Below are positions 1 through 19,612 of a stretch of DNA of 27,018 bases, in pieces. The notes beneath the pieces were generated by a model. It worked only from the letters and a program-made list of their open reading frames with translations. It was not told the origin of the DNA and ran no database searches. Source of the stretch: a virus; IMG/VR virus record IMGVR_UViG_3300021961_000520, positions 1-27,018 of that record; one strand, written 5' to 3'. Numbering within the stretch: position 1 is the first letter of the stretch; each line of letters opens with the position of its first letter. A program made the translations under genes and the position numbers.

Positions 1-3000
1 CTAGTTCGAAATCTTGATTTGTACTATAGATGTACAATAAATCACGTGTCCGGCGATAATTTTCAATCAGAAAATTTTGTTAGGTTGCCGTCATTACCAA
101 TTACAGGAGCAGTCCAAGCGATAAAAAGAACCACCTTTAATACTTTTAGAGTAAAGCGTATTCCTTATAATTTTATTGCCTACACAGTGCAAGAAGTAGT
201 AGATATTATCTTGGGCTACAGCGAATGGTTAAAGGGACAAGGCGTAGTATTTGATGAGTTTAATAAAGATTTATCAACACCTAGTGATTGGTTATTATCA
301 GCCAAAGAGTTTATGTTTTGGACTACGCATAATTGGGCAGTGGGATCATTAATTACATTGAGTCCAGCGGCTACCAAATTAAAAGTTTCGAATGTTGGAA
401 GCGTTGTTGAAAACTTATTAGATGGCTTTTACGAGTATAATATTTTTAAAAATGATGGTACAAAGATACCGTCGACAAATATACAAGTTTACAGAGGGTA
501 CGATGAATTTAGTCTAACCCCTCTAGACTCTAACGAAGGAATATATTTTGCAAAACTTAATTTTGTGCAGAAAGAACATATAGCTATCTTCAATGATAGA
601 ACTATGTTCGGGGATATATTGTACGACAAAGGGCCAGGATATCGACAAGACCGAATGAAGTTATTAGGTTTTAGGACCACAGACTGGGATGGCGATTATA
701 CTAGTCCAGGTTTCATATACGATTCTGCTGAAATTAATTCATGGGAATCTTTTAAAGATTACAGGATCGGTGATATAACTCGTTTTAGAGAATTCTTTTA
801 TGTGGCGAAATTATCTCATACAGGAACTCCTGATTTCAAATTTAGTAATTGGGAAAGGTTAGATTCTTATCCCACAGCTGGTTTAGTTGCAAATTTTGAT
901 TATAAGATTAATCAAATTGAGGATTATTATGAATTAGGTTATCAAGGTATAGACGATACTGAAAAAGAATTAGCAAGACATACTCTTGGATATCAAAAGA
1001 GACAATATCTGGAAGATATCGCACAGGACGAAGTAACACAATTTAGAATTTATCAAGGATTTATAAGAGAAAAAGGAACTAAAAATTCTATAACAAAAAT
1101 TTTCGATAAACTAAGCCCTATCGACCAAGATGCTATAGAACTAAACGAAGAATGGGCTTTCTTAATGGGATCTTTTGGCGGATCTGCTCAATTTGATGAA
1201 GTTGAATTAACAATTGATCAAAGAGATATTAAATTAAATCCTCAGCCTGTTATAGTGAATAGTAGGGGGTTGATTAAATCAAATTATCAAAACTATATAT
1301 TGGTCAAACCAGATGATTTTACTGTCGGCAATTCAGACTATCTATTTCCTACTAAGTCTTATCCGGTATCTGAAGCATCGGCGGGCTACGTGTATTCCGG
1401 TGATGTTGATTTTGTGGTTCGAGAAAGAATAAACTTATATGCCCTCGATATTAATCAATTACAGGATGGATCTACAGTATGGGTAACTTTTGATAATCCG
1501 GGGTGGACGGTTTTACGATACACTGTAACTGATATAATCATTGGAGCAGTAGCAGTTGTTGATACTACCTCGGTGACTTTAGAAACAAATAAACCGCATG
1601 GTTTAAAAATTGATGATATCATCGGAATCAACAATATTAGATACTTAGAAGGTTTTTGGCGTATCAAGGCTGTCGGATCTACTACAATTATTATCGAGAT
1701 AGCAGGCTATGACGAAGAACCGGTTATCGATGAAAGTTCTTTCGCCACAATATCTATTTTTAAACCTCTGCGTGTAGGTGAGTATAGCGATCTCGTATTA
1801 GATCGATTCGCAGCATACAGAGAAGGCACAAAAGTTTGGCTAGATGATAACGGATCCAATAAATGGGAAGTATTAGAAAAACGTAGAATTTATAAAGCCA
1901 TTGACGTTGCTAACTACGGTGTTGCCTTTCCAACCGGATCGGGCAAGGATGTTCTATACATCGAAGCTAGAAATCAAGTTGTTTCTGCCAACCCCGGACA
2001 GGTTGTTCCAGCAGGCGAAGTTATTAGAGAATCAGCAGTAGTAATTTATGGACAGAGCGAAGAAGGTCTAATACCTTTACAGGTTTTAAATCCTAACTCT
2101 GGTCTGAGAACATCATTCTTAGGATCATACGGTGAAGTGTTATCGGTCAGCAAAGACGGCCGTTGGTTAATGGTCGGATCACCTAATGTATCTTATATTC
2201 CTAGCAATTACAAAGAAACATTTAGTTCAACAGCAACATACAATCCTGGCGATACAGTTCTATATGCTGGAAAGTTATGGCAAGCTCAAAGGACAATCAT
2301 CGGTGACGGGTCATCTATAGATATTGAAAGTCAGGACTGGATTCCTGCGACAGAACACCTAGCTAACCCTTTAGGCATCGGCCTATATGATGTTAATCAA
2401 GGATATCGCCAGCAAGGTGCTATAGAGATATTTGAATACGACGAAGTATTCAGTCAGTATCAATTAAGGCACACAATTATTAGTCCAAGACCGGCACACG
2501 GAGAAAAATTTGCTTCTTCTATCAGCTTGTCTAAGAGACAGGGAATAGAAGGAACAAGCGGCGACGTTACACTAACTGTAGCATCTATAGATTCGCTCGG
2601 AGGAATATTAGAAGTTTCCGCTCAAGGAGAAAGCGGGTTAGAAGATGCTACATTCTCTAATGTAAGCGGCGTTGACATTAGTCTTCCTGGTTCTAACGCA
2701 ACATTTGATGTTTTAAAATCTAATAATACGTATACTGTTCTAGTAAGAACCGGCGGTACTCGATATGCTGTTGGCGACAGAATAAAAATTTCTGGTAGTA
2801 ATTTATTAGGGTTGACACCATTTAATGATTTAATTATCACAGTGACCGCTGTCACATCAACTGGCGAGATTGTAGGGTCTGCCACATATAATAATATTAT
2901 TGGTATTAACTCGATCGCTCCGCTAACCGAAGCAACGTTTCGTGTTACGAAATCTGGAACTAGATATGCTATTTCTAAAATCAATGCCGGCACAGGTTAT

Positions 3001-6000
3001 TTTTCTAGGAGCATTGTGCGATACTCTGGTCGATTATATGCCTGTATCAAAGATACTAGAGTTGATCTAGGAGTATGGGATCCTAATAGAACTTATCAAT
3101 CAGGAGACATCGTAAAATATCCAGCTAACTCAAGTTCGTATTATGTTGCTTTAGGATTGAATACAGGAGTTCTTCCTACCGATATAACTAAGTGGGAAAC
3201 AGCAGAGCCAATATTCCCAACAGATCAAGAATACTGGGAGCAAGTATCGGGGGCAGTTTTTGCTGAAGCTGCGGTTGAATGGTCTGACCTAGACATAACA
3301 GGAAATAGAATTCGCTATGTTTCTGGATCAATTATAACTATTTTAGGTAGCCAACTCGGCGGTGAAGATGGCGAACACGATGTTACTATTAGAGTTAATT
3401 CTATAACTGCTAACAAGAGTATAGATAATTTTTCTTACAGAGGAACAGCATCGTCTGGTATTACCTGGACTGGTGTCGGAACTGCTGGCGAAAGACAATT
3501 TAATGACCTACAAGGTGAAGATGTAAGCGACCCAGGGCAAGGTGCGATTTTTGATATCATTAGAGAAAATGGCGGTTATTCCGCTGTAGTCAATGTGTCA
3601 GGAACTCGATACAATGTTGGAGACCAAATTAGGATCTTAGGCAGTACATTGGGCGGTGTCGAGGAAGCCTATTATATGGTTGTAGGTGCTTCGGGTTCTA
3701 GAGACGATACCGGTCGATCATATCTTTACAAATTTGATGGAATATCGTGGAAGCATTTAGACGACCCTGCGTTTGTTGGAATCTATTCGTCCGCTAAAAA
3801 TTATCCGGCGGGATCAAAAGTTTGGTACAACAATGCCTATTGGCAGGCATTATCAAACATTCCAGCTATTTCAAATAATCAACCGGGTGTTGGTGCTTGG
3901 GAAGAATTAGCCGAAGTTACCAGAAGCATACTACCATCGACATTGGCCTATGCCGACGATGGTTCAACACTTCAACAAGGGGTTGATGGCAATGTAGAAT
4001 TCTTAACTACTGGCAGCAATTTTGGAACATCAACAGCATTTAGCAAAGATGGTTCAGTAATGGTAATTTCTGCTCCAAGGAATGACACAGCAGATTTTGA
4101 AAACTTCAAAGGAATTTGGAAAAATAATATCAATTATCTTGTTGGCGATACCGTAAGAAGAGGTACTTTCTATTATAATTGTCTCGCTGATAATATTAAT
4201 TCAACACCAGAATTAACACCGTCTATATGGCAAGAAAATACAGATTCAACTCTAAGCAAGACCGGATCTGTATTCATTTATGAAAAAGATGACGCAGAAA
4301 CATTTAATTTGATACAAACAATCGACGCCGATGAAATAGCATTAGAAGCTGGAGATGAATTCGGTCACAAGGTTGTAATAAATGAAGAAGGCACACGATT
4401 GTTTGTGTCTGCTCCTAATTTTGACTTTATCGGTAAAGACCAAGGTAGTGTGTTTATTTTCGATAAACGAAACGGCCAGTTCTCTCTAATACAAAAAGTC
4501 AACGGATTAGTATTAGAACCAGGTGAAAGATTTGGTTCAAATCTTTCTGTATCGCCCGACGGAGTAACTTTAGCTATATCCGCTGAAGGCGCATCTACAT
4601 TTAAAACAACTATATTTGATAATGGAAATACAGCGTTTGACAGGTTTGTAACTAACTTTAGAGATTCTCAAGGTAAGACAGGTAAAGTATATGTCTATAC
4701 AAATTATACAGGTTCTTTTGTTCTGTCAGAAATTCTAGATCAAGGTTTGAATACTGACGAAGATTTTGGTCGAGGTCTTTCTGTATCTAACAGTTCAATA
4801 ATAGTTGGATCTCCGTTGTACATTTCTGAAGATCCAGCGTTCGAAGCTGTTAGAATCGGTCGTATACAGAAGTTTGATAAGATTCCAAATACTAAGCCCT
4901 GGTTCACTATCAGACAACAAGACGACCAGGTTAACATCGATCTGTTAAAGAATTTTGCCTTATACGATAAATTTAATAATTTAAAGATAGCTGATATTGA
5001 TATTATTGATCCGTACAAAGGAAAAATACTTTCAGAAGCAGATCAATATATCGATTTTAAAACATCATTCGATCCTGCGATATACGGAGTGGGAACAGAA
5101 GATTCACCAGTAGACCCCAACCAAGCATGGCAGTCAGATAAAGTAGGTTCGATATGGTGGGATTTGTCTACAGTCAAGTGGACTTTATACGAACAGGATT
5201 CATTATCTTTCCGTAGCGGAAATTGGGGTTCTCCGGTTCTAGGTAGTAGTATCGACATTTATGAGTGGGTTGAGACAGAGTTGAAGCCTAGTGAATGGAA
5301 TGATATTACAGGTACATCAGAAGGATTCTCAATAGGAGTATCGGGAACAGCATTATACGGTGACGATTCAAATTATTCTGTACGCACAGTATTGGACGTA
5401 ACTACCGGGTTTCCGTCATCTGTTACATATTATTATTGGGTAAAAAATAAAACTACAATTCCAGATATCGTAGAAAGAAAATTTACTGCTCAACAAATAG
5501 CAAATTATATTTCATCTCCGCTCTCGGCAGGAGTTCCATACGCGGTATTAACTTCTAAAAATACTTTTAGTTTAGTTAATGTTGATTCTGTTATTGATCA
5601 AGATAAATTTTTAGTTAATATTCAGTTTTTTGAAAAAGAAAAAGACATTAACTTAATTCACACTGAATATCAATTATTATCTGAAGGCATATTAGAGTAT
5701 CCTAATCAAGAATTAGAAAACAAATGGATTGACAGTTTAATAGGCGAAGACATTGCTGGACAAACAGTACCAGACAGAAAATTGTCTACTAAAATGAGAT
5801 ATGGAATATTATCTAGACCGAGACAAAGTATGTTTGTCGATAGAAATAAAGCAGTAAACATTACTATCGGATATGTTAATGATATTTTAAAACAAAGACC
5901 ATTTGCTGAAATAATTGATTATACTAATTTAAATCTATTAGATGAAGAACCATCATCTGTAAAAAATCTTTATGATCAGGTTTTAGAAACCGAAGCCGAA

Positions 6001-9000
6001 TTAAGATTTATAGCTACATCTAAAATTAAAACAGCAATATTAAAAGCAAACATAGTTAATGGTCATATTAATACTGTTGACGTTATCGATGGAGGGTATG
6101 GATATAAGACTCCGCCTGACATAAAAATAATAGGTACTGGTTCTGGTGCTAAACTAAAACCGATACTTAATAACAGGGGCACAATTACTTCTGTTCAAGT
6201 TATTAATCAAGGCAAAAAATATCTTACAGTATCATTGATAGTACGGCCATTCGCTGTGTTAGTTAGAACAGATTCTACAGTTAACAATGCCTGGAGCATT
6301 TATTCTTTAGAAGAAAAAAATAAAGAGTTTTATAGATCTGCTACTCAATCTTATGATACAAGAAAGTATTGGAAAAAAATAGATTGGTGGTTAGCACCTT
6401 TCAACGAAAAATCTAAAATTAAGAAAACAATCGCTGGGTTATACGAAGAATCTAGTGTTGATCTCAAAATCGGAGAACTTCTAAGACTAGAAAACTACGG
6501 TGCTGGTGGATGGGCTGTATTAGAGCGTGTTGAGACGACAGATGCTGATATTTTTGAAAAATATAGATTAGTTGGTAGAAATCTAGGTACTATTGAAATT
6601 ATTAACGGTTTTTATAACACAACCGCAGAATCAACTGGGTACGATCTAACCCAAGCGTTTGATAGTAATCGATATGATACATCGGCTGCTATTGAATTTA
6701 GAAATATCTTAAGAGCTGTTAAGGAAGATATATTTAAAGATGATTTATTGGTTGAGTGGAATAAACTATTTTTTGTGGCTGTGAGATATGTATTTTCAGA
6801 ACAACTATATGTTGACTGGGCATTTAAAACTAGTTTTGTTAAAGGTACACATAATGTAGGATACTTAGAACAGAAACTTAATTATAAAAACGATAATCTT
6901 TCGAGTTATCAGTCTTATATAGAAGAAGTAAAACCATATAGGACAAAGATTAGAAGTTATGTTAGTAAGTATTTCAATATTGAAACAGCTAATCAAGTAA
7001 CTACAGATTTTGATTTACCACCAGTATGGAACGCTGCTACAAAGACAATTAAGACTATCGATAATAGTTCAGAAGAGATATCGCAATATCCGTGGAAACT
7101 TTGGTCAGACAATAATCATTTTTCTGTTGTTGATATTAAGATAGTTTCACAGGGATCGAGTTATACTTCCGTCCCGCAGATAGTTTTTGAAGGCGGCGGA
7201 GGCAGCGGAGCTAAGGCACAGGCATATATTTCAAACGGAAAAATATCTAAAATTATTGTAACCTCTTCGGGATCGGGATATACATCCGCTCCGAATGTTT
7301 TAGTGGTGGGCGGAGTAGGTAGCGAAATACAGAATGCTGCTCGAGCTGTAGCGATCATCGGCGACTCAAAGGTTAGAACCTTTGATATGAAATTAAAGTT
7401 TGATAGGATTTCTAAGATACCTAAATTTAAATCATATAGCTACGATGAAAAGTTTGTAGAATCAGAAACTTTTGTCGCACAGAACAAACAGACCACTTAT
7501 AGATTGAAATATCCGTTATCTCTAGATAAATCGACCATCGAAGTTTCGGTTAACGGATCTAGACTATTAGCTAGTCAATATTCTGTAAGTCTAACAGAAG
7601 AAATAATAAATGGAACTACTGAGTTAATCGGCAGATTGATTCTTAATATAGCACCGTCTGCTAATTCTTTAGTTGCTATTAATTATGAAAAGAATGATGA
7701 AATATTAGACAGTTTAAACAGGATCGACAAATATTATAAACCTATTGCCGGTCAGTTAGGAGTAGAAAAAACTAAAGTTGATGATACAGAAGGCAGTGAA
7801 ATTGTATCTGATTACTCTCAGTTAATTACAGGAATTGACTACGGCGGAACTATTGTCCAAGGTGCTACTTTTGATGTTGGTGCAGGTTGGGACGCATTAC
7901 CATGGTTTACCGAAGGATGGGATAGTGCTGAAGTTAATGAAACAGATTATTATTTCTTAGTTGACGGAAGCACAACATCTGTAACATTGCCTACTGTTCC
8001 CGCAGCGGGAATCAATATCAACGTTTATGTAAAACGTGAAACTACAGGAAAAACTGTAAGATTAGATCATCCAAGATACGACGAGTATCAGTTAGGAGAT
8101 AGTTCTTATACAGGAGAAATTCCACCTGATACCGCAGTGATGAATACGTTTGTTGGTGATGGATCGACAGCCGCAGTAATTTTACCGCAGGCAACCAATT
8201 TAGAATCTGGCGACCTTCTAATATTCCGTCCAGACACCAGCGACGGAAGTTTAATTATTGGCGGAAGAAACAGTATCGATGCTTATATATCAGGTGGCTC
8301 TCTATCTGGAATGGCTGCGTATTCAACTGCTACAGGATCAACAGCATCGGAAATCTTGCTTGACGGTGATAGATTTATCAGTCCCGAACAAGTTCCGGCA
8401 CCGGAAGAAAACGTTCCCGGTCAAGTCCTTGAAGCATTAAGCATCAAAGTTTTTCACTCATCGCGTAGTGGTGGTTCGTCTCTCAAATCTAATATTTTTA
8501 TCGGTGACGGCACAACGATATTGTTTGATATCGGACAACAGGTAATTGAAAAAACAAACATAATAGTATTTGTTGACAAATACAAAAAATCTATTGACAC
8601 AGACTTTGTTATTATTCCAGAGACCGATTCTGTTCGATTTATAGGATCTGCTCCGATTCTAGGATCTATAATAGAAATTTTTAGTATGGGGCCAGGTGGC
8701 GCCGGTATTTTAGATTATAGAGAATTTACCGGAACCGGTAATGATAGATATTTTATAACAGGCGCCGCGTTTGACGAAACAGCGACGATATTTGCTAGCG
8801 TCGATAATCAACCTATTGATGTTGGATTTATTAACAGTAGTCAATTAACAGATACACAAGACAAAGCTCTTGTCGAATTTGGTGTAGCACCAATAGTCGG
8901 TTCTAAGATTATTTTAATAGCACTATTATCCGCTGACAGACCACTGATTAAAATTAATCAAACTGAAATTATTCTTGACGATACGATACTAGAATATGCT

Positions 9001-10392
9001 ATACCTACTTTCAGCGGATTAGACATTGATCCAGCCGGTGATATGATAGTTGAGTTAAATGGGCAGTTACTAAGAACTGTTGAGACTACTTATAAAATCT
9101 ATGACGGGAATAATAGTGTGCCTATCGGAGTTGATACACCGAGAGAACCAGGCACTATTATATTCACTGACTTAAAAGTTTTTGTTGACGGTGTTATTAA
9201 AACTTTTGGTATTGATTATGTCTTTACCTCAGAAAACAATACTGTTACATTTACCAAACCTGTGGAAATAGGAGCAGTTATCCGCATAGAGGATTCATCG
9301 GCTAGACAGTATTCAATTTTAGGTACACAGATTATCCTAGAACAATCTACTTCATTTACTACAGGTGATATATTATCTATTACTTGGTTTGATAGATATA
9401 CTGAACTTGACGTGGTCAAAGATGAATTTACCGGTGGCAAAGTTAGCTTTTCATTGCAAAGACCGTTGTTAGGAATTTCATATGTTTGGGTTTATAAAAA
9501 CGGTGAACGTCTAACTCCCGACATTGATTTCTATGTCGAATTACCAAGGACTATCTATCTAAAAGACGAAACTTCGACAACAGATATAATAGAAACTATC
9601 AGCTTCGGTGATCTTTTATATAAAGAACCGCTATCTTTTGAGATATTTAAAGACGTATTGAATAGAAATCATTTCAGCAGATTTAGGGTTTCTGAGATCG
9701 AGCTAGACAAAGATCTAAATTACTACGATAACGAAATAGTTCTAGTAGATGCTAGTACTCTGCCAACCCCTGCCAAAGATCAACCAGGTATCGTAACAAT
9801 ACAGGGAGAAAAGATACAGTATTTTGAAAAATCTGGAAATATACTCAGAAATATCAAACGAGGATTGTTCGGAACAGCTATTAGGCCATTGCACACTAAG
9901 GGAACACTAGTAGTTGATACCAGCTTTTTAGAATTTGTTCCTTACCAAGAATCTCAGGAAAAAGAAGATTTCATATCTGATGGAACTTCACATATAATTG
10001 GTCCGCTTACTTATGTTCCTCAAAAAACAACAGTAACAAATTGGTATAGAGACACAATTCCAGACGATTTCGGCCGCTGTGATCAGATCGAAGTATTTGT
10101 AGGCGGAAGAAGATTGAGAAAAGATCCGACTAAGCTCTACGATCCTACAGTAGGAGCTTATAGTCCTGCCGGCGATGTTGACGTCGAGGCAGAGTTTTCT
10201 GTGGACGGAATCACAGAGAATATTAGATTAACTGTGCCTGCTCCGGCGGGAACACGTATCACAGTGATACGCAGACAGGGAAGATTATGGTATGATCGCG
10301 GTATTACAACCGCAACTACTGGGCAAGGACTCAGCTATAGCAACACCGCTATCGCTAAGTTTCTACAAAATAGCAGTACAAAATTACCATAA
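1..10392 (+). CDS. Giant modular virion structural protein, 5' end outside window
   Basis: The frame is open from base 1 (CTA GTT CGA AAT...) to the TAA at 10390-10392, giving at least 3463 residues. The TTG at 19 has no ribosome binding site, so the true start lies upstream. Modules in order: an N-terminal region (1-1250) with phrases such as FWTTHNWAVGSL and FRIYQGFIREKGT, which I recall from giant structural proteins of T4-like cyanophages; an HGLxxxD beta module (about 1555-1722); an FG-GAP propeller with inserted modules (2104-4890); a central conserved-looking region (6370-6985, WKKIDWWLAP and YIEEVKPYRTKIR); two Gly-rich segments (about 6070-6240 and 7150-7350); and C-terminal beta-sandwich-like modules (7465-10310). 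No signal peptide, membrane segment or enzyme motif was seen. It sits directly upstream of the small virion gene and the fibre cluster, suggesting a baseplate or tail-associated, possibly glycan-binding, role. The structural assignment is fairly sure; the position in the virion is inferred. Confidence 0.85.
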   Translation, partial: LVRNLDLYYRCTINHVSGDNFQSENFVRLPSLPITGAVQAIKRTTFNTFRVKRIPYNFIAYTVQEVVDIILGYSEWLKGQGVVFDEFNKDLSTPSDWLLSAKEFMFWTTHNWAVGSLITLSPAATKLKVSNVGSVVENLLDGFYEYNIFKNDGTKIPSTNIQVYRGYDEFSLTPLDSNEGIYFAKLNFVQKEHIAIFNDRTMFGDILYDKGPGYRQDRMKLLGFRTTDWDGDYTSPGFIYDSAEINSWESFKDYRIGDITRFREFFYVAKLSHTGTPDFKFSNWERLDSYPTAGLVANFDYKINQIEDYYELGYQGIDDTEKELARHTLGYQKRQYLEDIAQDEVTQFRIYQGFIREKGTKNSITKIFDKLSPIDQDAIELNEEWAFLMGSFGGSAQFDEVELTIDQRDIKLNPQPVIVNSRGLIKSNYQNYILVKPDDFTVGNSDYLFPTKSYPVSEASAGYVYSGDVDFVVRERINLYALDINQLQDGSTVWVTFDNPGWTVLRYTVTDIIIGAVAVVDTTSVTLETNKPHGLKIDDIIGINNIRYLEGFWRIKAVGSTTIIIEIAGYDEEPVIDESSFATISIFKPLRVGEYSDLVLDRFAAYREGTKVWLDDNGSNKWEVLEKRRIYKAIDVANYGVAFPTGSGKDVLYIEARNQVVSANPGQVVPAGEVIRESAVVIYGQSEEGLIPLQVLNPNSGLRTSFLGSYGEVLSVSKDGRWLMVGSPNVSYIPSNYKETFSSTATYNPGDTVLYAGKLWQAQRTIIGDGSSIDIESQDWIPATEHLANPLGIGLYDVNQGYRQQGAIEIFEYDEVFSQYQLRHTIISPRPAHGEKFASSISLSKRQGIEGTSGDVTLTVASIDSLGGILEVSAQGESGLEDATFSNVSGVDISLPGSNATFDVLKSNNTYTVLVRTGGTRYAVGDRIKISGSNLLGLTPFNDLIITVTAVTSTGEIVGSATYNNIIGINSIAPLTEATFRVTKSGTRYAISKINAGTGYFSRSIVRYSGRLYACIKDTRVDLGVWDPNRTYQSGDIVKYPANSSSYYVALGLNTGVLPTDITKWETAEPIFPTDQEYWEQVSGAVFAEAAVEWSDLDITGNRIRYVSGSIITILGSQLGGEDGEHDVTIRVNSITANKSIDNFSYRGTASSGITWTGVGTAGERQFNDLQGEDVSDPGQGAIFDIIRENGGYSAVVNVSGTRYNVGDQIRILGSTLGGVEEAYYMVVGASGSRDDTGRSYLYKFDGISWKHLDDPAFVGIYSSAKNYPAGSKVWYNNAYWQALSNIPAISNNQPGVGAWEELAEVTRSILPSTLAYADDGSTLQQGVDGNVEFLTTGSNFGTSTAFSKDGSVMVISAPRNDTADFENFKGIWKNNINYLVGDTVRRGTFYYNCLADNINSTPELTPSIWQENTDSTLSKTGSVFIYEKDDAETFNLIQTIDADEIALEAGDEFGHKVVINEEGTRLFVSAPNFDFIGKDQGSVFIFDKRNGQFSLIQKVNGLVLEPGERFGSNLSVSPDGVTLAISAEGASTFKTTIFDNGNTAFDRFVTNFRDSQGKTGKVYVYTNYTGSFVLSEILDQGLNTDEDFGRGLSVSNSSIIVGSPLYISEDPAFEAVRIGRIQKFDKIPNTKPWFTIRQQDDQVNIDLLKNFALYDKFNNLKIADIDIIDPYKGKILSEADQYIDFKTSFDPAIYGVGTEDSPVDPNQAWQSDKVGSIWWDLSTVKWTLYEQDSLSFRSGNWGSPVLGSSIDIYEWVETELKPSEWNDITGTSEGFSIGVSGTALYGDDSNYSVRTVLDVTTGFPSSVTYYYWVKNKTTIPDIVERKFTAQQIANYISSPLSAGVPYAVLTSKNTFSLVNVDSVIDQDKFLVNIQFFEKEKDINLIHTEYQLLSEGILEYPNQELENKWIDSLIGEDIAGQTVPDRKLSTKMRYGILSRPRQSMFVDRNKAVNITIGYVNDILKQRPFAEIIDYTNLNLLDEEPSSVKNLYDQVLETEAELRFIATSKIKTAILKANIVNGHINTVDVIDGGYGYKTPPDIKIIGTGSGAKLKPILNNRGTITSVQVINQGKKYLTVSLIVRPFAVLVRTDSTVNNAWSIYSLEEKNKEFYRSATQSYDTRKYWKKIDWWLAPFNEKSKIKKTIAGLYEESSVDLKIGELLRLENYGAGGWAVLERVETTDADIFEKYRLVGRNLGTIEIINGFYNTTAESTGYDLTQAFDSNRYDTSAAIEFRNILRAVKEDIFKDDLLVEWNKLFFVAVRYVFSEQLYVDWAFKTSFVKGTHNVGYLEQKLNYKNDNLSSYQSYIEEVKPYRTKIRSYVSKYFNIETANQVTTDFDLPPVWNAATKTIKTIDNSSEEISQYPWKLWSDNNHFSVVDIKIVSQGSSYTSVPQIVFEGGGGSGAKAQAYISNGKISKIIVTSSGSGYTSAPNVLVVGGVGSEIQNAARAVAIIGDSKVRTFDMKLKFDRISKIPKFKSYSYDEKFVESETFVAQNKQTTYRLKYPLSLDKSTIEVSVNGSRLLASQYSVSLTEEIINGTTELIGRLILNIAPSANSLVAINYEKNDEILDSLNRIDKYYKPIAGQLGVEKTKVDDTEGSEIVSDYSQLITGIDYGGTIVQGATFDVGAGWDALPWFTEGWDSAEVNETDYYFLVDGSTTSVTLPTVPAAGININVYVKRETTGKTVRLDHPRYDEYQLGDSSYTGEIPPDTAVMNTFVGDGSTAAVILPQATNLESGDLLIFRPDTSDGSLIIGGRNSIDAYISGGSLSGMAAYSTATGSTASEILLDGDRFISPEQVPAPEENVPGQVLEALSIKVFHSSRSGGSSLKSNIFIGDGTTILFDIGQQVIEKTNIIVFVDKYKKSIDTDFVIIPETDSVRFIGSAPILGSIIEIFSMGPGGAGILDYREFTGTGNDRYFITGAAFDETATIFASVDNQPIDVGFINSSQLTDTQDKALVEFGVAPIVGSKIILIALLSADRPLIKINQTEIILDDTILEYAIPTFSGLDIDPAGDMIVELNGQLLRTVETTYKIYDGNNSVPIGVDTPREPGTIIFTDLKVFVDGVIKTFGIDYVFTSENNTVTFTKPVEIGAVIRIEDSSARQYSILGTQIILEQSTSFTTGDILSITWFDRYTELDVVKDEFTGGKVSFSLQRPLLGISYVWVYKNGERLTPDIDFYVELPRTIYLKDETSTTDIIETISFGDLLYKEPLSFEIFKDVLNRNHFSRFRVSEIELDKDLNYYDNEIVLVDASTLPTPAKDQPGIVTIQGEKIQYFEKSGNILRNIKRGLFGTAIRPLHTKGTLVVDTSFLEFVPYQESQEKEDFISDGTSHIIGPLTYVPQKTTVTNWYRDTIPDDFGRCDQIEVFVGGRRLRKDPTKLYDPTVGAYSPAGDVDVEAEFSVDGITENIRLTVPAPAGTRITVIRRQGRLWYDRGITTATTGQGLSYSNTAIAKFLQNSSTKLP
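2104..4890 (+). other. FG-GAP (integrin-like) beta-propeller region inside the giant protein
   Basis: Six blade-type motifs are visible in translation: GSYGEVLSVSKDG (near 2128), GEKFASSISLSK (near 2500), GSNFGTSTAFSKDG (near 4015), GDEFGHKVVINEEG (near 4354), GERFGSNLSVSPDG (near 4522) and DEDFGRGLSVSNS (near 4756). Each is followed by a hydrophobic strand ending in VGSP, ISAP, VSAP or similar, and then by a strand such as GSVFIYEKD, GSVFIFDKR or GKVYVYTN. This is the FG-GAP blade pattern. Several inter-strand loops hold extra modules of about 45 residues with aromatic residues and a GD or GS step (GDTVLYAGKLWQA, GSKVWYNNAYWQA, GDTVRRGTFYYNC), which resemble CBM5/12-type binding modules. The propeller call is good; ligand binding is inference. 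Confidence 0.7.
2640..3665 (+). repeat. Diverged protein repeats (GTRYxVGDxIxIxGS) in the giant gene
   Basis: At least two clear and two partial copies of one beta-rich unit occur here. Clear copies contain ATFDVLKSNNTYTVLV then GTRYAVGDRIKISGS (about 2698-2805), and AIFDIIRENGGYSAVV then GTRYNVGDQIRILGS (about 3544-3645). Partial copies contain GTRYAISKINAGTGYF (about 2959-3005) and RIRYVSGSIITILGS with QLGGEDGEHDVTIRV (about 3309-3405). The block falls between two strands that would normally be adjacent in the FG-GAP propeller, so it looks like an insertion that grew by duplication. Copies are diverged at DNA level, so this is old duplication rather than a recent tandem repeat. Confidence 0.65.
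7465..10310 (+). other. String of beta-sandwich-like modules at the C-terminus of the giant protein
   Basis: The translation repeats a loose pattern: a start such as F-x-GDGSTxxxxLP, then a strand with VxVDG or VYVNG, then a tyrosine-containing turn, then a strand ending AP-x-xG-x-x-I. Examples start near 7465 (ETFVAQNKQTTYRLKYPL), 7945 (YYFLVDGSTTSVTLP), 8142 (NTFVGDGSTAAVILP), 8491 (NIFIGDGTTILFDIG), 8720 (REFTGTGNDRYFITG), 8962, 9310 and 9960 (DFISDGTSHIIGPL). Similar modules are common in phage fibre and tail proteins. The last, containing FVGGRRLRKDPTKLYDP and ending near GRLWYDRG, is the most distinct. The module boundaries are estimates by eye. Confidence 0.5.
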
Positions 10393-10404: not shown

Positions 10405-11064
10405 ATGAATAAAGACGAGTCTAAAACTATGTTAGAACAACCAATACAACAAATTCCAGAGAAAAAACCTGACGAAACAGGAGGGTTTCATGTTGAAGGG
10501 CATATAAAGATATTTGATCCTGAAAACGGAGAAATCTTTATAGATAAAAGAAATGCTATCCATTACGAGAATATGAGCGTAGCGATGGCACAGTCTTTGT
10601 CTAATCAACTCCAGGGATGGATATCAGAAATGGTATTTGGCAATGGAGGAACTGTAGTTGATCCTACGGGATTAATTACCTATCTAACACCAAATACTAA
10701 CGGTACTAATTCCAGCCTTTATTCGCAGACCTATTCAAAAGTAGTAGATCAAAATTCTGCTACAAACAACGATCCTGTTAGAAATAAAATGGAAATCAGG
10801 CATGTAACCGGAGCAACATATACTGATATTGTTGTAAGTTGTTTATTAGACTACGGCGAACCAGCTAGCCAAGAAGCGTTTGATAACTCAGTTGACATGT
10901 CTGGAGATTTCGTATTTGACGAATTAGGACTAAAAGCTAATGGATCTGGAAAATTATTAACACATGTAATATTCCATCCTGTACAAAAATCTCTGAATCG
11001 TTTGATACAGATCGATTATACAATTAGAATACAGAGCCTAACTGGTTTCACTGAGGTACAATAA
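10405..11064 (+). CDS. Putative virion structural protein (219 aa)
   Basis: The 219-residue product has a short charged N-terminus followed by an apparently beta-rich body (GGFHVEGHIKIFDPENGE near the start). Its end, THVIFHPVQKSLNRLIQIDY then TIRIQS, is a type of C-terminus I recall from uncharacterised structural proteins of T4-like marine phages. No enzyme motif is visible. It follows the giant gene by 12 bases and overlaps the first fibre gene by one base (ATAATG), so it belongs to the adsorption-apparatus operon and may be a baseplate or fibre connector; that role is inferred from position only. The first ATG (10405) has no Shine-Dalgarno sequence. An alternative ATG at 10429 has a weak GAG nine bases upstream and would give 211 residues. 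Confidence 0.75.
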   Translation: MNKDESKTMLEQPIQQIPEKKPDETGGFHVEGHIKIFDPENGEIFIDKRNAIHYENMSVAMAQSLSNQLQGWISEMVFGNGGTVVDPTGLITYLTPNTNGTNSSLYSQTYSKVVDQNSATNNDPVRNKMEIRHVTGATYTDIVVSCLLDYGEPASQEAFDNSVDMSGDFVFDELGLKANGSGKLLTHVIFHPVQKSLNRLIQIDYTIRIQSLTGFTEVQ

Positions 11065-13259
11065 TGGCATATAAAGTATATTTTACCGACAGTACGCTAC
11101 ATCCTGAACCATTAGAAGTTCCGGATAATTTTCCAAATACTTCAACTAGTATTTCAATACCTGGCCGAAATCAAACAGGCTATGGACAGATAATCGCTGA
11201 AAATTTTATACATCTATTAGAAAATTTTGCCAGCGGTTCAGCACCTGAATCATCAAAATCAGTTGTAGGTCAACTCTGGTTTAATTCAGACGAAAATAAA
11301 CTTTATGTTTATGATGGCATAGAATACAAAACAACCAGTAATATTAGCACAGGCGTTAATGAGCCAACTGGATCAAGCCTTGGTGACCTTTGGGTCAACT
11401 CTAGTACACAGCAGTTATATCTGTGGTCAGGAACTAATTGGGTTTTGATTGGACCACAGTTCAGTGAAGGAACAAAATCAGGTCCTCTAGTTGAAACAAT
11501 ACTTGATATTGATAACTTAGAACGAACTGTAATTGTATTTTATACTAAAGATATTCCTGTAACAATCATTAGCAAAGACGATTTTATTCCTAAGGTTGTT
11601 ATTCAGGGATTTACTGAAATTAAAGCCGGCATCAATATAACAAATAGGACTGATATTTCTGAAGAAGTAGTTACTCCTAGATTAATAGGCATAGCTAGAT
11701 CTGCAGAATCTTTGCTAGTAGGCACTGACGAGATTCCTTCCTCTAGTTTTATTAGAACTGATACTACCGGAACGATCCAGGCACAGCTTAATATTAGATC
11801 TGACTCTGGTCTATTTGTAGGTACTAACGGAAACATAAACCTCGGAGTAAGGTCATCGAGCGGTATTTTTTATAATTCAACACCTGGTGCGGCTATCGAT
11901 TTGCAGACCACTAGAACAGGTGCTGCTGGTTTGCCGACAACCGTAATTAAGATAGTTGAAGACCGTGTCGGTATTAACAATACTAATCCTCAACAGCCGT
12001 TAGATGTCGGTGGCAATGTTAAGATAGCGGGCGAAATTATTAATACATCGGAACAGCAGTCGTCAAATCTTAGCAATGGTGCTATACAAACAGCTGGCGG
12101 TGCTGCTATCGCTAAGAACTTAAACGTTGGCGGTGACTTATCTGTTTTAAACGGAAACATTTTTTCAAAATCTATTAAACCGTTAACAACATCAGAAACT
12201 ATCGGTGATTCAGCAAATAGATACAGTACGATTTATGCTAACACTATTGATGCGTCTATTATTAAAGGTAACCTAAGCGGTAATCTTGCTGGTAATGCTC
12301 AAACATCCACGTCGTTACAATCTGCTACTAATTTTAAACTAGAAGGTGACGTTTCTAGTAACGTTGTGGTGTTTAATGGTACAGGAAATTTAACTAAAAC
12401 ATTTGTAACAACACTAACATCAGATATTATTTCGACTAAGTCGGCATTAGGTAATGTTAGAGATACAGACGAATTATTAGTTTATAGAAGTACTCTGGGT
12501 CTTCGTAAGATGACCAGAGAAACATTTATTGATGATGCAGGTGTTCCTATCGGAGCAGTCTTGCCTTACGCTGGCACTACAGCACCTACAGGTTACTTGC
12601 TGTGTGACGGATCTGAATATGAAGCATATAGATTTAGGGATCTATATGATATCATTGGATCAAATGTTAATTATAAGAATTTAGGTAGAACTGTAAATTT
12701 AGACCTTAAAGGATCTGACAAGGGCGAAACTTTCCGAGTTCCAGACCTCAGAGGGCGTTTTGTTCTTGGTAAACAAGATATGAATGCTGATACAACAGTT
12801 CCTTATCCAGGAGGAAACAACAGCCCTGCTGCTGAAACCCCGTTGTCTGAAGTAGGTGGAAATCGTGTTGCTGACACATCGTCGGCTAATAGTTTAGGTA
12901 GAGCAGGCGGAGCAGATCAATATACTCTACAGGGACCTAATGTTCCAGATCATGAACATGATATGTATGGTAGATCGTCTGCTAACTCTCGTGCTACTCA
13001 GTACTATGCTATTACAGAATCGCCGACTACAAATTTAGATTATCAACCTGGCGGATCGATTACTAACATAAGAATAGAGGGTGGAACAGCCGCAAACGGA
13101 GCACAAGCTATGGCTTCTTCGGGATTAGTTAAAGTAACAGATGAGAACAAACGACGACCTGGATTTGCGGATTCTCAAACAGGCAAACCTTTCACTGTGA
13201 TGAATCCTTTTATCACGTTGAATTATATTATTCGAAGCGGCAGACCTACTAATGATTAA
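11064..13259 (+). CDS. Tail fibre / short-fibre-like adhesin with phage tail collar domain
   Basis: The 731-residue protein has three parts. Residues 1-190 form the anchoring domain shared by five genes here (ENFIHLLENFA, VGQLWFNS, LGDLWVNS, WVLIGPQ). A middle shaft contains the fibre phrase ETIGDSANRYSTIYA and short GN repeats (GNLSGNLAGNAQ). The C-terminal part has a phage tail collar domain beginning about residue 496 (IGAVLPYAGTTAPTGYLLCD) and continuing to FRVPDLRGRFVLGKQ near 562. An HEH motif (H630, H632) may bind metal in the trimer, as HxH motifs do in T4 fibre tips. It ends PFITLNYIIRSG, typical of collar-domain fibres. Its N-terminus is the most diverged of the five. The ATG at 11064 overlaps the previous stop and follows GAGGT. 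It may play the role of T4 gp12, but orthology is not shown. Confidence 0.85.
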   Translation: MAYKVYFTDSTLHPEPLEVPDNFPNTSTSISIPGRNQTGYGQIIAENFIHLLENFASGSAPESSKSVVGQLWFNSDENKLYVYDGIEYKTTSNISTGVNEPTGSSLGDLWVNSSTQQLYLWSGTNWVLIGPQFSEGTKSGPLVETILDIDNLERTVIVFYTKDIPVTIISKDDFIPKVVIQGFTEIKAGINITNRTDISEEVVTPRLIGIARSAESLLVGTDEIPSSSFIRTDTTGTIQAQLNIRSDSGLFVGTNGNINLGVRSSSGIFYNSTPGAAIDLQTTRTGAAGLPTTVIKIVEDRVGINNTNPQQPLDVGGNVKIAGEIINTSEQQSSNLSNGAIQTAGGAAIAKNLNVGGDLSVLNGNIFSKSIKPLTTSETIGDSANRYSTIYANTIDASIIKGNLSGNLAGNAQTSTSLQSATNFKLEGDVSSNVVVFNGTGNLTKTFVTTLTSDIISTKSALGNVRDTDELLVYRSTLGLRKMTRETFIDDAGVPIGAVLPYAGTTAPTGYLLCDGSEYEAYRFRDLYDIIGSNVNYKNLGRTVNLDLKGSDKGETFRVPDLRGRFVLGKQDMNADTTVPYPGGNNSPAAETPLSEVGGNRVADTSSANSLGRAGGADQYTLQGPNVPDHEHDMYGRSSANSRATQYYAITESPTTNLDYQPGGSITNIRIEGGTAANGAQAMASSGLVKVTDENKRRPGFADSQTGKPFTVMNPFITLNYIIRSGRPTND

Positions 13260-13271
13260 TGGAGCGATTTA

Positions 13272-15338
13272 ATGGCCTATACAGTAAACAAAACAGACGG
13301 ATCGATAGTAGCTACAGTAGCTGACGGTCAGATTGATCAAGGATCGACTGACCTAACACTTATCGGCAAAAATTTTAGCGGCTTTGGCGATTATCTAAAC
13401 GAAAATTTTGTTCATCTCCTAGAAAACTTTGCTTCTCAATCACAGCCTTCGCAGCCATTGATAGGACAGTTATGGTTTGATACTACAGAAAATAGAATTA
13501 AGGTATATTCGGGAAACGAATGGAAATCTGTCGGAACCGCAGCTTTATCTATATCTCGACCTCTTGACATCAGCACAGGGGATTTTTGGTTCAATACCTC
13601 GACAGCACAACTATTCTTTTTTGACGGAAGTCAAGATACTCTAGTAGCACCGATATACAGCTCATCTCAGAATCTTAGCGGTTTTAGGATTGAATCTTTA
13701 GAAGATTCTGATAGAAGAAGTAAGATCGTATCTGCTGTTTATAATGGTGGCAGGCTGATGGGATTTTTCAGCTCACAGGAATTTTCTCTAAGAAATCCCA
13801 TTTCTGATTATAACACAGTTAATCAAAATGGTGAGTCGATTCCTAATACGCTGATAAAGATCGGCTTCAATTCAGCCGATCCTACATTCAAATGGCAGGG
13901 CACAGCATATAATACAGATAGATTAGGTGAGATTGATTCTGTATTTTATGTAAGAAAAGATCTTCCTAACGTACTAACAGAAACATTAACAATCCAAAGA
14001 AACGACGGATTGTTTTTTGGTACAGGTCCTCAGGGACAGTTAGCAGTGGAAAATTCGACTGATGTAACGCTAAGAAACACTTCCGAAGACGGAAGCATAA
14101 CTCTAAAAGCTACCCGTGGCGGTAATCTTTTAAGTTATTTTATAATAACTCCTGATACCGGTGGTGATGATTTAATACAGATAGCACCATCAAATCCTCA
14201 GAGTTTAACTACCATTGGCGGCAGTGTTGAAATCACCGGCGATCTTACAGTTTTAGGAAATACAGTTAGTGTTGATGTATCGACATTAAGGGTAGAAGAT
14301 AAGAACATAGAATTAGGCAAGAAGTCTGACGGAACCAATATAACAGATGCTCAGGCGTATGGCGGTGGTATTATTCTAAACGGAACTACTGATCATTATA
14401 TTATTTGGAATGAAGACGAATCTGCTGTAGCTGACGAACAGGATTGGGACTTTAGTGAAAACATTGATATTCCAGCGACACGTTCTTATAAAATAGGCGG
14501 AGTTGAAGTTCTTAGAAATAATGGTACGACAATTGAATTAACCTCGGCAGTTACTATAGCTCCGGGATTAATTAGTTTCGGATCTCAGACGGCTCTTACT
14601 GCTGATAACATCACTATCGACGATAATAGGATTTCTAACAATGGAAGAAATACTCCTTATGCCGACGGCGATCCAGCTAATCCAAACGATTTAATTTTTG
14701 AACCGTTAGGCGATGTTGAGTTTGTCGGATCTCCTAGGCTACTAGGTATCACTACAGATGGAGAAAGTGCTCCGGATCAAACACAAGAAGGCTATACTTA
14801 CCTATCTACCAACGACCCTGATCAATTAGCACAAGCTACATCAAAGAAATACGTTACTAATCTAGTTAGAACTAGAAGCATTCCTCTATCTTTAGATATC
14901 ACAAAGAATAATAACAGCGGTCAAGGAACACAGGCAGAAACATCGTTAACCAATGCTGAAATAATTGCTATTGTTACAGATATTTGTCCTCCTGATGAGT
15001 ACGAAGAAAATACCCTTTGCCGAATAGCGACATCAAGATACTATCAAGAAGATATCGCACAACAAACATTCAATATCAACTATTCTACATTATATGAAGT
15101 TGATGGTTCTGAAACGCCCGGCGGACTTGAAACACCTCATGGTGTTGTTTTAGATATACAGAATCCAGTAGTTATACCAGCTAAAGCTCCTCCGCTATTA
15201 TTTGTTAGAAGAGGAAAAATTGTTTTACGATTAGAAAATATTTCTTCAACGTTAACATGGGTAGTTTACGAACCGTTAGTTGAAGATCCTTCGCCATATG
15301 ATATTCCATATGCGACATACGGTACAAGATTAATATAA
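13272..15338 (+). CDS. Fibre/adhesin paralogue 2 (688 aa)
   Basis: Residues 1-200 are the shared anchoring domain: LTLIGKNFSGFGDYLNENF, HLLENFA, IGQLWFDT and GDFWFNT. A fibre-shaft module follows at about residues 315-415 (ITGDLTVLGNTVSVDVSTLR then VEDKNIELGKKSDG and a TTDHYIIWNEDES stretch), a form I recall from cyanophage fibre-like proteins. It ends with a globular-looking tip containing two cysteines (DICPPDEYEENTLCRIATSR). The tip resembles that of the gene at 17347: each starts with a SLD strand and reaches an L-x-x-IA-S segment. The start at 13272 follows GGAGCGATTTA, a ribosome-binding arrangement seen before other paralogues. The receptor-binding role is inferred from architecture. 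Confidence 0.8.
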   Translation: MAYTVNKTDGSIVATVADGQIDQGSTDLTLIGKNFSGFGDYLNENFVHLLENFASQSQPSQPLIGQLWFDTTENRIKVYSGNEWKSVGTAALSISRPLDISTGDFWFNTSTAQLFFFDGSQDTLVAPIYSSSQNLSGFRIESLEDSDRRSKIVSAVYNGGRLMGFFSSQEFSLRNPISDYNTVNQNGESIPNTLIKIGFNSADPTFKWQGTAYNTDRLGEIDSVFYVRKDLPNVLTETLTIQRNDGLFFGTGPQGQLAVENSTDVTLRNTSEDGSITLKATRGGNLLSYFIITPDTGGDDLIQIAPSNPQSLTTIGGSVEITGDLTVLGNTVSVDVSTLRVEDKNIELGKKSDGTNITDAQAYGGGIILNGTTDHYIIWNEDESAVADEQDWDFSENIDIPATRSYKIGGVEVLRNNGTTIELTSAVTIAPGLISFGSQTALTADNITIDDNRISNNGRNTPYADGDPANPNDLIFEPLGDVEFVGSPRLLGITTDGESAPDQTQEGYTYLSTNDPDQLAQATSKKYVTNLVRTRSIPLSLDITKNNNSGQGTQAETSLTNAEIIAIVTDICPPDEYEENTLCRIATSRYYQEDIAQQTFNINYSTLYEVDGSETPGGLETPHGVVLDIQNPVVIPAKAPPLLFVRRGKIVLRLENISSTLTWVVYEPLVEDPSPYDIPYATYGTRLI

Positions 15339-15350
15339 TGGAAGAGCGAC

Positions 15351-16973
15351 ATGCCATATCAAATTAACAAATATAACGGAGAGCGACTAGTAATACTAGA
15401 AGATGGTACACTAGATTCCACTACGAATTTAAATCTAGTAGGAAAAAACTTTGCCGGCTACGGCGAAACACAAAATGAAAATTTTGTATTTTTATTAGAA
15501 AATTTCGCAGGTGGAATAGCTCCGGGGAAACCGTTGGCCGGGCAGTTATGGTATGATTCGACCGATAAGCGTATAAAAGTATATTCTGGTTCTACATGGA
15601 ATATTGTGGGCGGAACAAAACTATCAGAAACAGAACCAGAAGATCCTGCTCCAGGCGACGGATGGTATGAATCAGATAGCGGTAGATTCTATGTCTATGA
15701 CGGATCTGATTTTCAATTTGTAGGTCCGGAAACTGTAGCAGGTTTTGGTAACACACGACATGTTTCTACAATCATAGTTGATTCGTCGGGTAACGATATA
15801 CCGGTAATACAGACAACTATCAACGACACAATTATTTCAGTGATCGCTGATCGAGCATTTACACCTCTAACACCTATAACAGGATTTACTTCTTTTGTGA
15901 AGGGAATCAATTTATCAAGCACTGCTGTTATTAATGGGAATATATCAGGCAGCGCCGGTTCAGCAGCAACATTAACGACACCTAGAAATATCAACGGTGT
16001 GGCATTCAGCGGAGCCGCTGACATAACAGTTAAAGCCTCTACTACATTTAAATTAATCGCAGGCGACTATGTATCCGGAGCAGATTTTGACGGATCGGCA
16101 AATATTACTTGGACATTAGATGCTTCGTCAAATAATGTTCAAGATACTGTGGTTGTTCGAGATAGTTCTGGAAATTTTGCCGCTAATACAGTAGTGGCTA
16201 ATCTCACAGGCAATAGTGTAGGTACACATACTGGTCCTGTTGTTGGTGGAGTAACTGGAAATGTTATTGGTAATCTAACAGGCAATGTCTTAGGTAATGT
16301 TACAGGTGATGTAGTTGGTGATGTTACAGGTTCATTGACAGGCAGTGTATTAGGCAATGTCAAGGGAAGTTTAATTGCCGCAGATGATTCTGTGGCCTAT
16401 GACGGTACTACGAAAATCTTTACAGGTACGTTAACAGGTAATGCTGCTACGGCTACACGATTACAGAGCGATATACTTATTAACAATGTTCCTTTTACAG
16501 GACAATCTAGTATCACAGTTTTTGATAATACTAAATTTCCTAGCACCGGAGGAACATTAACTGGACCACTAATTTTAGCCAATGATCCATCAACGGGATT
16601 GGGTGCTGCTACAAAACAATATGTTGATGCTAGGGATCAGATTATAAAAAATGAAGTTATAGCATTATTTCCGACCAATTATACAATTACTTACGGTAAT
16701 ACACAGTATAGTACTACTGGTTATACAAATCAAGTCGGATCATTTAATAACGGAGCAAATTTCTTTGATGTTTATCCTCCGAGCGGAAAAGCTATGACAA
16801 ACCTTGTGGCATTTATGCCAAGTATCGCTGTTATACACTATGCCGGCGGCGTAGATGGAAATGACAGCTTAAGATGTACCTGGAGCAATCTTGGAGATAG
16901 GATTCGTGTTTGGGTTCAGAATACAGAACAGAGATCAACACCAGCAGCCAATTGGCTAGCTATTTGGAGTTAA
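15351..16973 (+). CDS. Fibre/adhesin paralogue 3 with tetrapeptide-repeat shaft (540 aa)
   Basis: Residues 1-190 are the shared anchoring domain (LNLVGKNFAGYGETQNENF, FLLENFA, AGQLWYDS, GDGWYES). The shaft includes 13 consecutive G-x-x-x tetrapeptides (residues 287-338), then AADDSVAYDGTTKIFTGTL and TGNAATATRLQS, then the fibre linker GGTLTGPLILANDP with AATKQYVDAR (near residue 405). The C-terminal 100 residues form a compact tip (FFDVYPPSGKAMTNLVAFMP, AGGVDGNDSLRCTW, TPAANWLAIWS) of a type I recall at the ends of phage tail fibres. It is followed after one base by a chaperone-like gene, the classical order of fibre then fibre-assembly protein. GGAAGAGCG precedes the ATG at 15351. Confidence 0.82.
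   Translation: MPYQINKYNGERLVILEDGTLDSTTNLNLVGKNFAGYGETQNENFVFLLENFAGGIAPGKPLAGQLWYDSTDKRIKVYSGSTWNIVGGTKLSETEPEDPAPGDGWYESDSGRFYVYDGSDFQFVGPETVAGFGNTRHVSTIIVDSSGNDIPVIQTTINDTIISVIADRAFTPLTPITGFTSFVKGINLSSTAVINGNISGSAGSAATLTTPRNINGVAFSGAADITVKASTTFKLIAGDYVSGADFDGSANITWTLDASSNNVQDTVVVRDSSGNFAANTVVANLTGNSVGTHTGPVVGGVTGNVIGNLTGNVLGNVTGDVVGDVTGSLTGSVLGNVKGSLIAADDSVAYDGTTKIFTGTLTGNAATATRLQSDILINNVPFTGQSSITVFDNTKFPSTGGTLTGPLILANDPSTGLGAATKQYVDARDQIIKNEVIALFPTNYTITYGNTQYSTTGYTNQVGSFNNGANFFDVYPPSGKAMTNLVAFMPSIAVIHYAGGVDGNDSLRCTWSNLGDRIRVWVQNTEQRSTPAANWLAIWS
16209..16370 (+). repeat. 12-bp-periodic repeat encoding 13 G-x-x-x tetrapeptides
   Basis: Thirteen in-frame 12-base units encode GNSV GTHT GPVV GGVT GNVI, then GNLT GNVL GNVT GDVV GDVT, then GSLT GSVL GNVK and a final GS. 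The glycine codon heads each unit (GGC, GGT, GGA). Other positions vary mainly as N/D/S and V/L/T. Shorter forms occur in paralogues (GDVEGDLTGNTVGEHTG in the gene at 20121). A strict four-residue period suggests a repetitive beta-structured shaft whose length can change by slippage or unequal recombination. Confidence 0.85.
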
Positions 16974-19128: not shown

Positions 19129-19612
19129 ACTAGTAAAAAATTATGTTACTAATGTAGAAGAGATAATCGAACTAGCAGAAAAGCATAGCGATAGGTTTTC
19201 TAGCCGGACCTCAACTGACACACATAATTTTAAAACATCGTATGGTAATAGTAAATTAAAAAGTCTTTTTCATTTTAACATGGACAATGACTTAAAATAT
19301 GCTATCACTAAAACTATACCAGATGATTCGAGATTCATCACTAGTATGACAATTAATAGATACGATCCGGGAGACTATCTATTAAGACACAAAGACAGCA
19401 TAGGTGGTTACTGGAAATTCAAATTGATTTTCCTTCAAAGCGATCAACCTCATTTTAAGTATTATGATGATCAGGGCATAGATCATTTAGTTGAAGAAGA
19501 ACCAGGTGCTCTAATGGACATGCCTATACACTTGGAACATGAAGTTACAAAAATAGGACCCACAGAACGGCCTAAATATAGTCTAGTATTGGCTTGGGGG
19601 AGGATTGGATAA
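19115..19612 (+). CDS. 2OG-Fe(II) dioxygenase, prolyl-4-hydroxylase-like (165 aa)
   Basis: The 165-residue protein carries the full 2-oxoglutarate/Fe(II) dioxygenase signature. The RHKDS motif gives the metal ligands H92 and D94, the distal ligand is H142 in MPIHLEHEV, and R152 (ERPKYSLVLAWG) is placed to bind the 2-oxoglutarate carboxylate. The strand NRYDPGDYLLRHKDSIGG is characteristic of the P4H-like group common in T4-like marine phages. Enzymes of this fold hydroxylate prolines or other residues of proteins, among other substrates. It is sandwiched within the fibre cluster and overlaps the upstream fibre gene by 14 bases and the next gene by one base (ATAATG). A fibre protein is therefore a natural candidate substrate, but this is inference from position. 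Confidence 0.85.
   Translation: MSQVKLVKNYVTNVEEIIELAEKHSDRFSSRTSTDTHNFKTSYGNSKLKSLFHFNMDNDLKYAITKTIPDDSRFITSMTINRYDPGDYLLRHKDSIGGYWKFKLIFLQSDQPHFKYYDDQGIDHLVEEEPGALMDMPIHLEHEVTKIGPTERPKYSLVLAWGRIG

Follow-up and report, generated by a model that had tools for sequence, protein, structure and literature searches.

A propeller with modules set into its loops

The window, by which we mean the whole 27,018-base virus record analyzed here, begins inside the gene of a giant baseplate structural protein (its first reading frame, open at the 5' end), and almost certainly this protein contains an FG-GAP propeller into which small modules of the CBM5/12 fold are plugged (Table 1). Residues ~651 to 1639 of the giant reading frame, at window positions 1951 to 4917, form a seven-bladed FG-GAP propeller. 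An initial annotation had placed such a propeller at 2104 to 4890; its presence was borne out, and its extent was approximately right, although the actual propeller reaches slightly beyond both limits.

In Pfam searches, FG-GAP_2 (PF14312) matched the giant reading frame with an E value of 1.8e-6 (28.5 bits versus a cut-off of 23) and matched residues 1334 to 1650 with 43.9 bits, while the propeller stretch alone matched both CBM_5_12 (E = 1.7e-13) and FG-GAP_2 (E = 8e-10). A profile built from 33 relatives and compared with the PDB identified integrin alpha-4 (E = 2e-8) and integrin alpha-M (E = 5e-7); this match needed the profile, as the window propeller searched against the PDB as a single sequence gave nothing significant. 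The Anabaena injection-system protein All3316 (7b5h) was discarded as a weak match (E = 0.27 with the single sequence and E = 0.006 with the profile); this protein, Cis13, is an anchor that has a transmembrane domain.

When the window stretch itself was modeled with AlphaFold, pLDDT was 75 to 95 over most blades but dropped under 50 across much of the blade 3 insert; because of the inserts, the pTM was 0.61, and the global TM-score to integrins was low. Given the weakness in the blade 3 insert and the low integrin score, a 673-aa relative (L025) was modeled instead, whose three loop modules occupy the same sites and from which the long blade 3 insert is absent; its model had a mean pLDDT of 82 and a pTM of 0.85. 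The L025 model consists of seven blades of four strands each plus three separate four-stranded inserted modules, so that structure prediction agrees with the initial view of the modules as domains in their own right rather than blade strands. In Foldseek searches of solved structures, integrin alpha chains ranked first, several of them of the type that carries an inserted I domain; target TM-scores were only moderate (about 0.3 to 0.6), as expected because of the extra domains. Among viral models, the matches were FG-GAP proteins from both giant viruses and phages, with target TM-scores of up to 0.74, including the "hemagglutinin protein" of Agrobacterium phage Atu_ph07 (target TM-score, 0.69).

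Table 1. Features of the giant protein and its propeller in the window
Feature	Position	Strand	Residues and basis
Giant baseplate structural protein, 5' cut	1..10392	+	3463 aa here; phrog_10938, E 9e-128
CBM12-like module A, upstream of propeller, cut by window end	4..99	+	Residues 2-33; Phe at Trp687 position
CBM12-like module B, upstream of propeller	739..873	+	Residues 247-291; family profile
Propeller blade 1	1951..2088	+	Model strands, alignment
Propeller blade 2, interrupted in b-c loop	2137..2478	+	Model strands, alignment
Site 1 CBM5/12-fold module, b-c loop of blade 2	2221..2358	+	Residues 741-786; Pfam E 7e-5, profile
Propeller blade 3, interrupted in a-b hairpin	2509..3759	+	Model, alignment
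Blade 3 insert, ~376 aa, between strands a and b	2539..3666	+	Alignment; low model confidence
Half CBM5/12-like module in blade 3 insert	2986..3057	+	Residues 996-1019; Pfam E 0.06, profile
CBM5/12-like module in blade 3 insert	3070..3213	+	Residues 1024-1071; Pfam E 0.0017, profile
Site 2 CBM5/12-like module, loop from blade 3 strand d to blade 4 strand a	3775..3915	+	~Residues 1260-1305; profile, model
Propeller blade 4, interrupted in b-c loop	4024..4326	+	Model strands, alignment
Site 3 CBM5/12-like module, b-c loop of blade 4	4105..4242	+	~Residues 1371-1414; Pfam E 0.012, profile
Propeller blade 5, best FG-GAP_2 match	4372..4503	+	Pfam, model strands
Propeller blade 6	4528..4737	+	Model strands, alignment
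Propeller blade 7	4774..4917	+	Model strands, alignment
Conserved core directly after propeller	4909..5889	+	Common to PA5oct, RaK2, GAP32 and Phosso giants

Detection and placement of the inserted modules

CBM_5_12 (PF02839) matched the giant reading frame over four stretches (E = 1.9e-10; 41.1 bits versus a cut-off of 26.2). The whole protein therefore lies above the curated cut-off, but each single module lies below it. When the five modules listed in the initial annotation were searched one at a time, those beginning at 2221, 3070 and 4105 were matched below the cut-off (stretches 2206-2376, E = 7e-5; 3052-3240, E = 0.0017; 4090-4260, E = 0.012), whereas the stretches around the modules at 3775 and 730 (3760-3930 and 721-894) had no CBM_5_12 match on their own. 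A profile of the module family found all five, together with a half module and one cut by the window end. With the window's own modules held out, the profile still found the four complete propeller modules (E = 6e-16 to 5e-5) and, weakly, the modules outside the propeller (E = 0.006 and 0.18), and shuffled proteins gave no module-profile match below 1e-3. In PDB searches, the profile of 33 relatives also matched the chitinase CBM 2rts (E = 0.001), and module A, which has counterparts in PA5oct and Phosso, matched the chitinase A1 ChBD 1ed7 (E = 0.0034). The initial proposal of separate inserted CBM5/12-like modules is thus upheld by Pfam at the level of the whole protein, by the held-out profile and by the L025 model.

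The alignment shows the loop modules cleanly intercalated between neighboring blade strands, and they are regarded as insertions because bare propellers of ~420 to 500 aa occupy the same place in relatives. The modules at 2221 and 4105 do sit in the same type of loop, as had been proposed (the b-c loops of blades 2 and 4), but the module at 3775 lies between blades 3 and 4, that at 3070 belongs to the blade 3 insert, and that at 730 is outside the propeller. The full blade 3 insert, found only in close relatives of the window, contains two "GTRYxVGDxIxIxGSxL" repeats as well as CBM-like modules. The b-c and d-a loops of a propeller emerge on the same side of the disc, and the a-b hairpins emerge on the other side; by this topology, the modules at sites 1 to 3 are expected to share one face, with the blade 3 insert opposite them. 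G+C content is near 0.41 at sites 1 and 2 and in the blade 3 insert, 0.31 at site 3, and 0.34 to 0.37 in the flanks. A recent acquisition was not deduced from base composition, since these differences are too slight.

Binding residues differ between upstream and loop modules

Known CBM5 modules bind chitin via an exposed aromatic pair, Y282-W283, together with Y296 (in CjCBM5), and known CBM12 modules bind via Gln679 and Trp687; other conserved Tyr and Trp residues (Y265 and W299) belong to the hydrophobic core (PMC8449059). The propeller modules of the window have core aromatics only, the equivalents of the CBM5 pair and of Trp687 being absent. Across the family, with residues counted by a pattern anchored heuristically on the "[YW]xA/C" strand and with related rows included, the Trp687 position was aromatic in 125 of 133 upstream modules versus 2 of 79 propeller modules, and the CBM5 pair position was aromatic in 6 of the 79. 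The contrast at the Trp687 position is too large to depend on the heuristic anchor. In most upstream modules, Trp687 is replaced by Phe, often within an "HTSxxxF" motif that resembles ChiA1; loop modules often share "GDGSTIxIxSxDW" instead.

Since the Trp687 aromatic is kept upstream and lost in the propeller, canonical chitin-type binding is predicted for the two upstream modules, which probably use a CBM12-like aromatic contact, and not for the loop modules, which may have a ligand other than chitin or make a protein contact. Of the head proposed initially, the three modules in b-c or d-a loops are upheld, but the "several aromatic binding faces" attributed to it are not supported by these residues, and the proposed glycan binding is only partly supported. 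The dN/dS ratios of the modules between the window and its relatives were roughly 0.03 to 0.16, with dS near saturation; there is no sign in these low values of receptor-driven diversification.

The giant protein occupies the slot of T4 gp7

The whole protein comprises 4,890 aa in one relative (L001, a 269,730-base contig). In L001, the gene just upstream of the giant encodes a gp6-like baseplate wedge (phrog_10646, E = 5e-291; phrog_219), and a wedge-connector match (phrog_677) lies close to the N terminus of the giant itself. The same order of wedge and giant is found in PA5oct, Phosso, GAP32 and RaK2, and in GAP32 and Phosso, gp25-type and gp6-type genes precede the giant; the PA5oct giant is a virion protein by mass spectrometry, according to the genome annotation. 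Its place behind a gp6-like wedge gene makes the giant a baseplate protein, and its gene position in this large T4-like myophage corresponds to that of T4 gp7. Sequence homology to T4 gp7 was not found: a profile search of PDB sequences returned no gp7 chain at E values of up to 1. As to the host, a psbA-type gene, looked for as a clue, was absent from six large relatives, and matches to metagenome-assembled genomes (MAGs) came from numerous marine bins with no relation to each other and therefore do not point to a host.

Distribution and evolution of the propeller and its modules

The core that follows the propeller was found on at least 586 viral contigs and a relative of the propeller itself on at least 216. 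Seven relatives are colinear with the window, with 79 to 83% identity over the propeller. The distance from a "WEVxEK" anchor to the core ranges from ~420 aa (a bare propeller) to ~1,100 aa (80 loci). Among 60 distinct relatives, FG-GAP_2 was detected in 55 (E up to 0.01; best E = 4e-27) and CBM_5_12 within the propeller stretch in 24. All three sites were filled in the closer relatives of the extended set (48 of 48). In a tree built from the core, modules are present throughout the window's clade (25 rows) and missing from a clade of 16 rows, and a third clade is mixed; this mixed clade also uses site 1, separately. The module label changes at least 4 to 6 times on this quick tree, on which gain and loss are not told apart. 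The modules have thus been gained or lost repeatedly at recurrent sites.

Compared with annotated phages, the window propeller gave one weak match; of the propellers of two relatives, one gave a weak match elsewhere in the Phosso genome and the other gave none. The bare propellers of two relatives had no PHROG match, and the literature searched contained no description of such an arrangement of modules on an FG-GAP propeller of a giant baseplate protein.

Comparison with known systems

The closest known proteins are the phrog_10938 giants of jumbo myophages (PA5oct gp355, RaK2 ORF070w, GAP32_230 and Sinorhizobium phage Phosso gp294), which share the homologous core on either side of the propeller site and the slot after a gp6-like wedge gene; those of PA5oct and Phosso also have a CBM12-like module. 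However, no propeller was found at the site in these giants, which have ~91 aa (GAP32), ~325 aa (PA5oct) or other repeats (Phosso) there. The integrin alpha chain, the best PDB match by fold and profile, likewise has seven FG-GAP blades and accommodates an extra domain in one of the propeller loops, but identity is 10 to 15%, its inserted fold (the I domain) differs, and the phage protein has several inserts in a baseplate context. The resemblance to integrins is a likeness of plan and not membership in the same system.

CBM-type domains are also inserted in structural tail proteins, and absent from some homologues, in evolved Dits and other CBM-bearing tail proteins of lactococcal siphophages (PMC6669499, PMC10688798), and the same is found in the giant. 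In those systems, by contrast, the scaffold is a Dit, MTP or neck protein rather than a propeller, the CBM folds are others, and binding is proven by experiment: green fluorescent protein (GFP) fusions of 936-phage CBMs bind host cells (PMC6669499), and evolved Dits restore adsorption (PMC10688798). Bacillus myophage Vp4 carries CBM folds in its baseplate wedge protein Gp119, which are absent from the Deep-Blue homologue; Gp119 binds cells in experiments and the CBM-less homologue does not, but its folds are of the CBM16 and xylanase-type CBM kinds, and there is no propeller (PMC11406892). With CBM5/12 itself (PF02839; ChiA1 ChBD 1ed7 and PfChiA 2rts), the modules share the sequence pattern, the core Tyr and Trp, and a small all-beta build, but the loop modules are without exposed binding aromatics, and the upstream modules mostly have Phe for Trp687. 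Module insertion in phage tail proteins is known; here it is found on an FG-GAP propeller in a giant baseplate protein, with fixed sockets.

Possible functions of the modules

Our preferred explanation, which we put forward tentatively, combines this architecture with an accessory adhesion role. The propeller would be a disc that displays the modules on the baseplate, and the modules would be accessory adhesion domains comparable to the CBMs inserted in evolved Dit and wedge proteins. Before the sheath contracts or while it does so, they would touch the host envelope weakly at many points; the upstream modules would act through a CBM12-like aromatic contact and the loop modules through another surface. 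The loop modules without the known binding aromatics, and the low dN/dS, weigh against such a role. Indeed, both points are also consistent with the loop modules being structural, either as spacers or as protein-protein contacts that tie the propeller to fibers or neighboring wedges with no sugar ligand: the binding aromatics are kept upstream and lost in the loops, the modules are under purifying selection, and the three sites are filled throughout the closer relatives, as expected of a structural part. We consider this a plausible alternative of somewhat lower probability. Many family members, however, have a bare propeller, and the modules are therefore dispensable for assembly; gain and loss at the same sites fit accessory domains better than essential contacts; and, because CBM-fold tail insertions elsewhere are adhesive, accessory adhesion is favored over a purely structural role.

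That the loop modules are instead true chitin- or GlcNAc-type CBM5/12 domains, forming a multivalent glycan-binding head via aromatic faces, would suit the passing of the curated CBM_5_12 cut-off by the whole protein and the fact that one face is expected to carry at least three loop modules, but we think it improbable, as the CBM5 pair and Trp687 are missing from the window's loop modules and from those of nearly all relatives. The protein is also large, with several repeat types, so the FG-GAP-like and CBM-like matches could in principle reflect composition in a long repetitive phage protein; this reading is refuted by the curated cut-offs that were passed, the empty shuffles, the confident fold of L025 and the independent PDB matches, and its probability is negligible. 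Going further than the accessory adhesion that we favor, the propeller might be a general exchange platform of jumbo-phage baseplates, with fixed loop sockets that take CBM-fold or other cassettes, loop modules that are a new nonaromatic CBM5/12 subclass with a nonchitin ligand, and a baseplate protein that tunes envelope recognition apart from the tail fibers; we regard this extension as speculative and rather unlikely.

Hundreds of uncultured phages encode giant baseplate proteins of 4,000 to 5,000 aa, whose function is annotated only as "structural." A CBM5/12 database match in a phage protein alone does not mean chitin binding, and such matches call for caution. The present analysis makes the layout of these giants legible, as a conserved core combined with a propeller in a fixed position and with sockets that gain and lose small domains. 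It also raises the question of whether adaptation to the host surface may proceed by the swapping of modules on the baseplate itself, apart from the tail fibers.

Modules of the giant baseplate protein and its relatives

In some relatives encoding homologues of the giant baseplate protein, the small CBM-like modules were extra or doubled, as in L024 and L075, and up to about seven per giant chain were found among the relatives with the module-family profile. In PHROG searches, the 'GSGYTSxP' modules of the giant drew additional matches to head-closure and wedge families, among others. These repeats are promiscuous modules, and most of the weak matches to cyanophages are probably due to them.

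Features of the giant, its relatives and the downstream genes (window positions unless a relative is named)
Feature	Positions	Giant residues	Location or basis
Extra CBM-like module	L024 8327-8422	2279-2310	c-d loop of blade 2
Tandem CBM-like pair, L075		2437-2660	site 3 (b-c loop of blade 4)
CBM-like modules, L034, L038, L054, L057, L064, L069		~4550-4850	near C-terminus; module-family profile
CBM-like modules, most of L025-L048 group		~220-280	near N-terminus; module-family profile
'GSGYTSxP' repeat modules	6028-7320	~2010-2440	after core
219-aa protein, phrog_11259	10405-11064		follows giant
Fibre-like paralogues	11064-13259, 13272-15338, 15351-16973, 17347-19128, 20121-21917		common N-terminal domain
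165-aa protein	19115-19612		between fibre genes
Gene run, glycosyltransferase-like by eye	23516-27016		'LLIDSDFFIL', 'CLDTDMIF' stretches

Genes downstream of the giant

Since a protein of about 200 aa is encoded near the corresponding place in the jumbo phages PA5oct and Phosso, the phrog_11259 protein is a candidate partner of the giant. Pfam searches gave no significant match for three genes of the glycosyltransferase-like run and no match for the 165-aa protein. By eye, the latter resembles a 2-oxoglutarate-Fe(II) oxygenase, in that an H-x-D stretch is followed by a His further along.

The N-terminal domain common to the fibre-like paralogues reads '...LVGKNYAGYGExQNENFLHLLENFA...GQLWYD...', and the product of the first gene also contains a tail collar domain, matched by Pfam Collar at E = 1.9e-12. 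The product of the last carries a C-terminal match to Peptidase_G2, a self-cleaving intramolecular chaperone, that was above the cut-off (E = 1.4e-6). Because of this match, the fibre encoded by 20121-21917 is probably cleaved once the trimer has formed.
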